From contig NZ_CP006965.1 in NCBI RefSeq assembly GCF_000517445.1, positions 868,001-932,000 of the forward strand: a stretch of DNA of 64,000 nt. Direction: 5' to 3'. The notes below the pieces were generated by a model. The model was not told where the DNA came from. It saw only the letters and a program-made list of their open reading frames with translations, and did not search any database. The position numbers were made by a program, and so were the translations under genes. Source of the DNA: Thermococcus paralvinellae. GTDB taxonomy: Archaea; Methanobacteriota_B; Thermococci; Thermococcales; Thermococcaceae. Each line of letters opens with the position of its first letter. Positions within the stretch are counted from its first letter, which is position 1. This document shows positions 25,677 to 29,212 of this stretch, in pieces.

Positions 25677-26246
25677 ATGCAACGGCCTATAATCCTGAAA
25701 GGTAAGAGAGTCTCTCTTGGTGTTCTCTTGAGAGAAGACATACCGAAGGTTTGGTTATGGTACAATGATAGAGATGTGAGGAGATATCTGTCCTCACCAG
25801 ATGCTGTGTTCTATTTTGAAGATGAAATGGAGTGGTACGAAAGAGTTAAACGGGAAAATGAAAAGCATAGAGTTTTTGCAATCGTTGAGAACAAAGGTAG
25901 TTCTCTCGTTGGAATTATCGGTGTTCATAGGATTGACCACAAAAATGGACATGCCGAGATAGGATACTTTTTGAGCAAGGAATATTGGGGGAAGAGATAT
26001 GCAACAGAAGCCGTAAAATTAGTCTTGGATTACTGCTTCAAATGGCTCAATCTAAGGAAAGTTTATGCAAGAGTTTATGAGTGCAACATCGCTTCGCAAA
26101 GAGTTCTTGAAAAGAATGGATTTAAGTGCGTAGAGAGGCTAAGAAAGCACGTTCACATTCCAGAGGAAGGCTTTGCGGATGTTTTATTTTATGAGCTGTT
26201 TAAGGATGAATGGGAAAACGTTAAGAACATTGGAAACAACAGATAA
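25677..26246 (+). CDS. GNAT-family N-acetyltransferase (RimJ/RimL-like)
   Basis: 189 residues from ATG 25677 (MQRPIILKGKRVSLGVLL). The acetyl-CoA fold is evident in HAEIGYFLSKEYWGKRYATE, with the CoA pyrophosphate loop region and VYECNIASQRVLEKNGFKCV, the classic RimJ/RimL signature. Substrate may be a protein N-terminus or an aminoglycoside-like amine; not determinable. An 11-base tandem repeat (GTGTATAACAT twice, 25658-25679) lies across the start and pushes the ribosome-binding site AAGGTG 17 bases away. Stop and the ATG at 26247 abut, so it is probably in one operon with the AAA ATPase behind it. Confidence 0.8.
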   Translation: MQRPIILKGKRVSLGVLLREDIPKVWLWYNDRDVRRYLSSPDAVFYFEDEMEWYERVKRENEKHRVFAIVENKGSSLVGIIGVHRIDHKNGHAEIGYFLSKEYWGKRYATEAVKLVLDYCFKWLNLRKVYARVYECNIASQRVLEKNGFKCVERLRKHVHIPEEGFADVLFYELFKDEWENVKNIGNNR

Positions 26247-26258
26247 ATGGTGAGCAGA

Positions 26259-27344
26259 ATGCTAATTGAGGAGATTATAGAGATCAAGGAGTTCAGAGGG
26301 ATTAAGGAGCTTGCTGAACCTTTACTGCTTAGGAAGTTTAATGTCCTTATTGGGAAAAATAATTCTGGAAAATCAGCTTTGCTTGAGGCTTTGTTTTTGT
26401 TTCCACATCCTGAACGAATGCACCCTTTGCGCAAACAAGAAATAACCAACAAGAAAAGTAAAAAGCCAAATCGAGAACATTATGTTTTGTTCAACCTAGC
26501 TATAAGACGTCATGGGCTTAGCAGCCTTATCTATAAGTACTCGGGAACTGCAACGATCATTTTGAGGTGCAGTGAGGGAAAGAAGTGGGAGATTTCAATT
26601 AACGAAAGTGGAAGTAGTAAGGTCAAGTTGAATGGAAGATATCTCACATTAGATTCAAAAACAGACTTGCTGTATTACCAATCCGAAACAAAGAAAAAAA
26701 TTAATATAATGCTCTCTCAACATCCAGATATCCCATTATCGTCAAGTAAACGTCTTATGACTAAAATCAGTACAATCTCCTTGTATTTTCCATATGATAC
26801 AGATTTTATACGTAGTATTGATGAATATTTAACGAAAAACGAAAACTCACTCATGAAATATGGCATACATTCACGAATAGCACAGTTAGTGAGTCAAGAA
26901 CTTGATGAAAAATTCACTGAAATCGTCCTTAAGAAAGATGGATGGTATTTAAGACGAGAAGATGCTACATATATTCATATCGATGACGTAGGTGATGGGC
27001 TCAAGAAAGCAGCTAGAATAATGATGGTTGCTGAGCTTTTGAAGCCTAAGCTCATACTCTGGGACGACTTTGACACATCTCTGCATCCATCCATGATCAA
27101 AATGCTCCTTAAGTGGCTCGCACAAGGAGACTGGCAGGTAGTCATAGCGACGCACAGCATTGACGTGCTTTATTACCTGGCAGACCTAAATGAAGAGCTT
27201 GACGACTTTGATGCTCAGCTCATACTCCTTAGAAAAGACCAAGAGGACATTCTGCATCATAAGGAGCTTAACATGGATGAGCTTGAGGACTTGCTTGAAG
27301 GAAACGTTGATCCGAGGATGCTCGTTGATGTTCTGAAAATCTAA
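26259..27344 (+). CDS. AAA ATPase of the OLD/ABC class (AAA_15/AAA_21-like)
   Basis: 361 residues. Walker A is VLIGKNNSGKSALLEALF (about residues 27-44), followed by a family-typical variable middle. Late motifs are DDVGDGLKKAARI (signature-like), Walker B LILWDDFDTSLHP, where Asp-Phe-Asp stands in place of the usual acidic pair, and the H-loop VVIATHSIDVLYYL. ATG 26259 is preferred because GGTGAG lies four bases before it; an ATG at 26247 adds four residues. Twelve bases separate it from the TOPRIM-like gene. An ATPase of this class plus a small TOPRIM or RloB-like partner is a known defence layout (for example PARIS and OLD-type systems), which is the reason to suspect the same here. Confidence 0.82.
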   Translation: MLIEEIIEIKEFRGIKELAEPLLLRKFNVLIGKNNSGKSALLEALFLFPHPERMHPLRKQEITNKKSKKPNREHYVLFNLAIRRHGLSSLIYKYSGTATIILRCSEGKKWEISINESGSSKVKLNGRYLTLDSKTDLLYYQSETKKKINIMLSQHPDIPLSSSKRLMTKISTISLYFPYDTDFIRSIDEYLTKNENSLMKYGIHSRIAQLVSQELDEKFTEIVLKKDGWYLRREDATYIHIDDVGDGLKKAARIMMVAELLKPKLILWDDFDTSLHPSMIKMLLKWLAQGDWQVVIATHSIDVLYYLADLNEELDDFDAQLILLRKDQEDILHHKELNMDELEDLLEGNVDPRMLVDVLKI

Positions 27345-27356
27345 AGGTGACCTCAG

Positions 27357-27935
27357 TTGAAAGTGGTCGAATCCCCATCACACAATGATAAAGTATTGGC
27401 TTTTGTAATAACTGGAGATGGTGAAACTGAAAGGAAAGTTCTGAAGTTTATAGCGAATAGGTACAACGGGAAAGATAAGGCTTTAGTTTTCCAAAAAAGC
27501 TCATTAGCAAAGAAAACAGGGTTAAGTGCCCTAAATGCCATTGATGAAGTGTATCGTCTGTCTGGATATGCCACCTTTCTGATTTTGCTTGATAAGGAGC
27601 ACTTCACTCGTGAGAATCTTGAATACAAATTAGCCCGCCTTTTTGGGAAATACGAACTTAGTAGAACGAACCCATACATCATAACATCTGATGTTTTTAG
27701 AGTGTATCTTGTAGTTTTAGGACATAAAAAAGCCATAGAAGAGCACATTGCAAAACTCATTGAGCTGGAATTCAAAGAGTCAATACCACCAGAAAAAAGC
27801 GCAATTAAGACTTTTCTAAGGACTAATGGTCTTAAAAAATACAAAAAGTTATTTGAAACTGTAAAACTTGAAAACCTTGAGAAAGCTTTTAAACCCCTTG
27901 TTGAGGCTATAAAGCTCTTAGAGGAAGAAACATGA
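27357..27935 (+). CDS. Small TOPRIM-like protein, partner of the AAA ATPase
   Basis: 192 residues starting at TTG 27357, six bases after [23 protein letters not shown] (GDGETE at residues 20-25) resembles TOPRIM motif I, whose glutamate is catalytic, and [11 protein letters not shown] (about 73-83) resembles the DxD-type motif, although with Asp-Lys-Glu instead of Asp-x-Asp. The rest is helical with many lysines ([12 protein letters not shown]). Relatives are DUF4276/DUF4435/RloB-like proteins. It would supply a nuclease or RNA-cutting activity controlled by the ATPase. The stop overlaps the tiaS start by four bases. Whether it is catalytic is inferred, not shown. Confidence 0.6.
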
Positions 27936-29212
27936 TGCTCCACATAGGAATTGACGATACTGACTCACCAAATGGCATGTGCACGACTTATTTAGGGGCT
28001 CTGCTTTATAAGGAAATCTCAAGGTTAGCGGAGCCTTTAGATTTGCCAAAACTGATTAGGCTAAACCCTAACGTTCCGTATAAGACAAGAGGAAATGGAG
28101 CAGTTGCAATGAGCTTTGAAGTTGATGAAGAAGATGCTCCAAAAATTAAGAGGCTTGTTCTCGAGATGGTTGAAAAATTGGCTGATTTAACTCATGAGAA
28201 CACGAATCCAGGTGTGGTGTTCTTAGAAGGTGAAGTTCCTGAAGAACTCACTAACTTCACATACAAAGCTATTTGGGAGCACGTAAGTATTGAAGAGGCA
28301 GAGAAAGTCGCCAAAGATGTTAATGTTGAAATTCACAAGTTCAAGTGTGGGAGGGGAATTGTTGGCGCTTTAGCTGCCATTGGGCATCCTTTAAATGTCT
28401 TCACCTATGAGCTTTTAGCATATAGAAAAAGAGAGCTTTGGGGAACTCCAAGAAAAGTAAATAGAGAGAGCGTTTTTGAAATGGATAAAAAGTTTTACCC
28501 GTTCACCTACGATAACGTTGATTGGGAAAAGCGCTCTGTTTTGATAACTCCTCACGGTAAAGATCCAGTTTTAGTTGGAATTAGAGGAATTGATGAGAAT
28601 AAAGTTTTGTTGGCATTTGAGAGTCTAGTTTTTGAAGAGCCCATTGAATTCTATCAAGTCTTCAAAACAAATCAGAACACTGACGACCATTTGAGGTTTA
28701 AGCGCATTAAAGATCTGAAAAATTATGACAGCGTGATGATTAGAGCCAAGGTTGTAAAGAGCTATTGGGAAAAAGGGAGGCATGTTTTCATTAAGGTGAG
28801 CGATGGGACTGGAGAATTGAGGGTTGCAGCATACGAGCCAACTAAAGGATTTAGGAGATACGTGAGAATGCTGATTGAAGGGGACGAGATTATAGCGGCT
28901 GGGGGAGTCAAGGAGTTTGAAGGTGAGCTAACGCTCAACTTGGAGAAGTTTTATCCAGTAAAGTTAGCAAAGAGAATAGAGTATAGAAAGCCCAAGTGTC
29001 CAAAATGTGGCGGAACGATGAAGAGCAAGGGAGATTACTTGAAGTGCAAAAAGTGCGGTTATAAAATGCCTAAAGTTTTGATTCCAATTGAAGTTCCGAG
29101 AAAGTTGCAAAAGAAAATTTACGAAGTTCCCCCTGATGCAAGGAGGCATTTATCGAGGCCTTTAGTCCTACCTTTAGGCGAGGAGAAGATTTTGGAAGGT
29201 ATTAATCTATAA
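27932..29212 (+). CDS. tiaS: tRNA(Ile2) 2-agmatinylcytidine synthetase
   Basis: Attaches agmatine to C34 of the AUA-reading isoleucine tRNA, an archaeal-specific essential step. 426 residues: N-terminal [20 protein letters not shown], the kinase-like [12 protein letters not shown], an OB-fold region (residues about 268-350) and a C-terminal zinc ribbon with [10 protein letters not shown] and CKKCGYK. ATG 27932 overlaps the preceding stop (ATGA); ATG 27935 is the next codon and cannot be excluded. Because it is translationally coupled to the AAA/TOPRIM-like pair, an essential gene shares a transcript with an apparent accessory module. Confidence 0.93.

Follow-up and report, generated by a model that had tools for sequence, protein, structure and literature searches.

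The slot upstream of tiaS in Thermococcus paralvinellae is occupied by a two-gene cassette, comprising an OLD/Rad50-type ABC ATPase and a separate 192-residue protein with TOPRIM-like acids. On balance, we lean towards reading this pair as an immune module of its own euryarchaeal lineage, in which an OLD-ABC ATPase and a separate TOPRIM protein would work by a PARIS/OLD-like mechanism from a favoured slot. The pair likely has a defence role and, by analogy with PARIS, a sensor ATPase with a nuclease effector is its most likely working mode. It would be PARIS-like but distinct, and any immunity it confers would probably be abortive.

The window analysed here is a stretch of 64,000 nt of T. paralvinellae DNA (GCF_000517445.1, NZ_CP006965.1, 868,001-932,000, forward strand), and its genome is G000 in a survey of 94 Thermococcales genomes. 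Four ORFs follow one another on the plus strand in the order GNAT, ATPase, 192-residue ORF and tiaS (Table 1). The original prediction held that these genes overlap or nearly touch on one strand; their coordinates are confirmed, except that GNAT and the ATPase probably do not overlap. A GGTGA ribosome-binding site at 26249-26253 precedes an ATG at 26259 that is in register with the starts of relatives and is probably the ATPase start, which leaves no GNAT-ATPase overlap. Equivalent ribosome-binding sites precede the TTG/GTG starts of the small genes in G032 and G022. At the other end, the tiaS ATG is overlapped by the small-gene TGA (ATGA), with AGAGG upstream of tiaS; most relatives have a leaderless-type TATA box in place of this GAGG/ATGA arrangement. 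From the layout, translation of all four genes from a single transcript is plausible.

Table 1. Coordinates of the genes, signals and motifs of the tiaS slot, numbered from the first position of the window.
Feature	Position	Strand	Basis or remark
GNAT acetyltransferase	25677..26246	+	Acetyltransf_3 1.2e-30
Occupied slot	26217..27932	+	five same-genus genomes align to 26217 and resume at 27932, ~30 nt between
OLD-like ABC ATPase	26259..27344	+	361 aa from ATG 26259; longer ORF start at 26247
Walker A, GKNNSGKS	26352..26375	+	sequence; conserved in ATPase alignment
Hypervariable middle segment of ATPase	26409..26777	+	residues 51-173 counted from ATG 26259
Walker B, LILWDDF	27051..27071	+	W-D-D-F invariant in 6/6 relatives and the distant L145 copy
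GGTGA ribosome-binding site, small gene	27346..27350	+	sequence
192-aa TOPRIM-like partner gene	27357..27935	+	TTG start; order-level search, alignments, AlphaFold
Motif I, TGDGETE	27411..27431	+	D21, G22, T24, E25 invariant in 6/6
Motif II, DKEH	27591..27602	+	D79, E81, H82 invariant in 6/6; strand 3 end by DSSP
Third acidic motif, AIEE	27732..27743	+	A126-E129 invariant in five Thermococcales rows
GAGG and ATGA stop/start overlap, small gene/tiaS	27921..27935	+	sequence
tiaS	27932..29212	+	NF040849 equivalog, 815 bits; 3' edge of slot, host gene

The small gene is intact in five of the 94 genomes (G000, G032, G022, G010 and G011). In a sixth, the draft genome G046 (L072/L144), it is split by a frameshift beside an intact ATPase, through either sequencing error or decay. 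The ATPase lies directly 5' of the small gene in all six, and again in a distant pair (L145) from a MAG of another euryarchaeote, where the pair adjoins leuC and other genes and no tiaS occurs within the stretch examined. A scan of the genome collection gave no matches with a single-sequence query and three loci with an alignment query. No relatives of the pair were found in viral contigs, phages or plasmids, and a simple mobile element was rejected on this ground; neither a defence island nor a mobile-element hallmark was seen around it. In the literature library searched, no paper joined Thermococcales, defence systems and Toprim.

The usual Thermococcales gene order is HD - XRE - GNAT - tiaS, and tiaS is found in 90/94 genomes; in 25 surveyed loci that lack the pair, GNAT immediately precedes tiaS. 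GNAT and tiaS are standing neighbours, and the ATPase and 192-residue protein form a variable cassette. The acetyltransferase, originally tied to the module, was rejected as a part of it, since it adjoins tiaS with or without the pair. In four genomes from three genera (G000, G032, G010 and G011) the pair lies directly 5' of tiaS, and the genes further upstream differ. In G022 GNAT precedes the pair and tiaS lies over 100 kb off, and G046 has the pair on one contig and tiaS on another. Deletion scars mark the slot in three more genomes. In G005 and G007 the deletion has spared only the flank on the promoter side and the final codons of the small gene, and in G012 the ATPase start is fused to the end of the small gene; the pair was deleted at least twice.

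Five same-genus siblings of the window genome have an identical empty junction, and the closest sibling, G089 (97% identity in TiaS), lacks the pair. Since the five siblings have this empty junction in common, the copy in the window probably arrived, by gain or by exchange, once its lineage had separated from that of G089. As read from these sequences, the history of the pair is one of loss, plus probable gain in G000. Patchiness with gain and loss, which the original prediction required, is borne out by the count of intact copies, the scars and the empty sibling sites, and the pair is accordingly not a feature of all Thermococcales. Its tree has weak resolution and weak support; it does not conflict with the species tree and would also fit old vertical inheritance.

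A fixed address, this compatible tree and purifying selection would also suit a chromosomal role of a housekeeping or accessory sort (cell cycle, processing of DNA or RNA) that is often lost and is not immunity. Such a role has a precedent in Cran1, the only archaeal OLD protein studied, an ATPase-nuclease with no detectable antiviral effect that acts in cell-cycle progression (PMC12796447). The tree and the Cran1 precedent, together with the lack of a significant TOPRIM match, of a defence island or mobile-element hallmark, and of relatives in viral contigs, phages or plasmids, count against the immune reading. Cran1, however, is a single, fused polypeptide next to a membrane protein, whereas the pair comprises two genes. 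The pair is also missing from nearly all Thermococcales. Its patchiness, its scars and its absence from G089 are not the pattern of an essential function and argue against a cell-cycle role, and we consider a housekeeping function unlikely.

The ATPase is an OLD/Rad50-type ABC ATPase, in line with the OLD-like AAA ATPase of the original prediction. In Pfam it matches AAA_21 (1.2e-21) and AAA_15 (2.4e-17). Its PADLOC matches are AbiLi, PDC-M38A and AriA; the best single one is AbiLi (5.4e-27), and AriA models score it at E=3.6e-23, with AbiLi and PDC-M38A higher. In Foldseek, its AlphaFold model (moderate confidence, pLDDT 69) has matches among Rad50/SMC heads and to PtuA, a defence ATPase, at E 1.5e-11 to 1e-8. 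The protein has the Walker A (GKNNSGKS), Walker B (WDDF) and H-loop (ATHS) of a Rad50/SMC-like ABC head. The DDFD noted at Walker B is present, and WDDF is invariant in relatives; ABC ATPases usually have a catalytic Glu where the window ATPase has Asp.

Identity between lineages falls to 15-29% in the middle segment of the ATPase, with many indels, against 43-77% in the C-terminal half, and much of the middle is modelled at low confidence. A conserved engine with a variable middle is what would be expected of a sensor, although the corresponding arm region varies in many ABC ATPases anyway. Comparison of the G022 and G046 ATPase sequences (dN ~0.14, dS ~1.7, the latter near saturation) indicates that the ATPase is under purifying selection.

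The small ORF has relatives along its full length in four further Thermococcales, at 43-51% identity, plus a distant relative from another euryarchaeote. It gave nothing above noise in Pfam, NCBIfam, PADLOC or PHROGs, no significant TOPRIM match in a PDB sequence search, and no HMM match to RloB, DUF4276 or DUF3226 in Pfam scans at E up to 1-10; hhalign comparisons with DUF3226 and DUF4276-like partners were not significant. RloB and DUF4276 searches of the 94 genomes returned no matches, the DUF4276 control being silent too. HEC-01B was matched by one relative only (E=0.006) and by none of the others, and its genome search was blank with an equally silent control. Assignment to RloB, DUF4276, DUF3226, AriB or AbiLii was rejected for want of HMM support. 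Of the profile comparisons proposed for the two proteins, that of the ATPase with AAA_15/AAA_21 gave matches, and that of the small protein with DUF4276, DUF4435 and RloB gave none in Pfam scans.

An AlphaFold model of the small protein, built with six relatives (pLDDT 88, pTM 0.86), has the order b-a-b-a-b-a. By alignment and DSSP, DGxTE follows strand 1 and DxE, the DKE of the original prediction, ends strand 3. Canonical TOPRIM partners have EGxTD in place of DGxTE. The acids are unchanged across sequences as low as 33-36% identity. At the third acidic motif the distant copy has LEE, and DUF4276-like partners have EIEEW at the equivalent place. In the predicted model, the acids of DGxTE...DxE are compatible with a TOPRIM site in which Asp and Glu have been swapped at the ends.

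Foldseek comparison of this model with the PDB and BFVD gave no match at E<=0.001, so that the TOPRIM fold, while supported by the model, is not proven. An RloB-like phage protein at BFVD rank 11 (TMq 0.42, E 0.17) was set aside as evidence because lumazine synthase scores similarly in the PDB. The TOPRIM/RloB-like partner originally proposed therefore holds in its predicted topology and motif placement, and not in any significant family, PDB-sequence or Foldseek match. These missing matches, and the swap of D and E at two positions (the first acid in motif I, the final one in motif II), would also be accommodated by a protein that is not an active TOPRIM nuclease, having either another Rossmann-like fold or the role of a degenerate TOPRIM regulator. 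We find this rather improbable: the invariant acids are placed in the predicted model where TOPRIM acids lie, and the DG...DxE pattern recurs in a partner from G093. That locus (L014:1477-3233) encodes a distant ATPase with WDDVE and a 225-aa partner with GDGDGDD...MDQE, whose hhalign match has E 3e-4 at a probability of only 38%.

Two other ATPase-partner modules were found in the Thermococcales. Module B, an OLD-like ATPase with a DUF4276-like partner (YDGDGP, EYEIEEW), lies directly after pth2 (peptidyl-tRNA hydrolase) and occurs in 20/94 genomes when counted by partner, fragments included, with a remnant in G005. It follows pth2 in 15/15 loci of a first set (L016, L018-L025, L027, L029-L033) and in most loci of another set that overlaps the first (L152-L172), G011 being an exception. 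Module C pairs an OLD-like ATPase with a DUF3226 TOPRIM protein and is inserted into the tungstate transporter operon of 17 genomes; its place is between wtpB and wtpC in 17/17 strong loci, one of which ends at a contig end before wtpC (module C loci: L193-L209, L173-L176, L179, L180, L182-L184, L189, L191). Both share with the pair a two-gene architecture, patchiness and a fixed chromosomal address. They differ in their addresses, in their motifs (EGxTD/DxD in C, EDAYGGE/DGD in B) and in their partners, which show no significant profile similarity to the small protein. Within the Thermococcales, related ATPases are followed by partners of the canonical EGxTD...RDxD type. In addition, nearly all Thermococcales encode a DUF3226-like protein of ~340 aa (e.g., G000:C1:1544531-1545217), which looks like a core relative of the module C partner.

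The position beside tiaS could in principle reflect function: the small protein would cleave tRNA-Ile2(CAU) or another tRNA, TiaS would protect through agm2C34, be guarded or act as trigger, and co-expression would matter. The recurrence of this position and its scars, the ATGA overlap in the window, the location of module B after another tRNA gene and the cleavage of tRNA by AriB of PARIS (PMC12409363) all speak for such coupling. Against it stand the carriers in which pair and tiaS lie apart (G022 and G046), the L145 stretch, and G032, G010 and G011, in which tiaS retains its own TATA box as in non-carriers. Moreover, other genomes have a gene for an esterase or a lipoprotein in the same slot, and module C is locked into a transporter operon, so that an address need not mean function. 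We therefore regard a functional coupling to TiaS as very unlikely; a tRNA-Ile2/TiaS role is possible but unsupported. Translation-targeting immunity wired to TiaS, in which an exchanged-acid TOPRIM cuts tRNA-Ile2(CAU) or senses agm2C34 and tiaS co-expression protects or arms the host, seems to us a distant prospect. Pth2 and TiaS both concern tRNA, which may hint at a tRNA theme, although module C has none. Given the tiaS TATA box, the other slot occupants and the other address-locked modules, the adjacency is probably positional, and tiaS, proposed at the outset to be more than an address, is probably a mere one.

PARIS (AriA/AriB, OLD class 4) resembles the pair in having an OLD-type ABC ATPase and a TOPRIM-type partner encoded by separate, adjacent genes, and the window ATPase matches the PADLOC AriA models, though AbiLi and PDC-M38A score higher. 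Cleavage of tRNA-Lys by PARIS is triggered by an anti-restriction protein. The PARIS ATPase acts as the sensor and the TOPRIM nuclease AriB as the effector (PMC12409363). The pair differs in its DGxTE/DxE motifs, its Walker B WDD and its archaeal chromosomal slot, as opposed to the phage-satellite hotspot of PARIS. No AriB-type match was found in PADLOC or Pfam for the window protein or its relatives, and identity with PARIS proper was rejected on this ground. AbiL is similar in that AbiLi is the top PADLOC match of the ATPase, but the small protein has no AbiLii match in PADLOC. OLD nucleases (class 1-3; Cran1 class 5) likewise combine an ABC ATPase and TOPRIM-like acids spaced as ExxxE...DxD, as in P2 OLD (E398/E402 and D453/D455; PMC7049728); they are one polypeptide, whereas here there are two, with Asp/Glu exchanged at two positions. 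The RloB, DUF4276 and DUF4435 partner families are alike in size, context and acidic motif plan, but for none of them did a Pfam scan of the small protein, at E up to 1-10, give an HMM match. Gabija/Class 2 OLD was also rejected, since there is no GajB beside a fused ATPase-TOPRIM, and the small gene is separate, with GNAT and tiaS as neighbours.

In the immune mechanism that we propose, the ABC ATPase would dimerise with nucleotide, hold the small protein in check and detect an invader via its variable middle segment. The small protein, once released or activated, would cleave nucleic acid through metal-dependent TOPRIM chemistry, and this cutting would harm the infected cell. Nuclease activity, target, trigger and antiviral role are what we infer for the pair. 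The slot beside tiaS would be inherited or exchanged with its flanks, TiaS not being needed for the mechanism; put simply, the pair would lie beside tiaS because it occupies a favoured slot.

Modules of an OLD-type ATPase and a separate TOPRIM protein have been studied in bacteria, as in PARIS. What OLD proteins do in archaea is barely known; the single one put to the test works in the cell cycle (PMC12796447). The pair offers a compact candidate from a heat-loving host, with a DGxTE...DxE and Walker B WDD signature missed by family libraries. Three module types, each patchy at one address (tiaS, pth2 or wtpB-wtpC), suggest that conflict genes of archaea settle in fixed slots of the chromosome, and such address-locking warns against inferring function from a neighbouring gene.

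Two observations concern the standing neighbours. The tiaS gene should be essential, and that of G087 (G087:C1:487284-488555) has an in-frame TAG, which is either a sequencing error or real. The GNAT is SpeG/PseH-like and is a conserved tiaS neighbour in several genera; TiaS uses agmatine, and the acetyltransferase could have a polyamine-related role.
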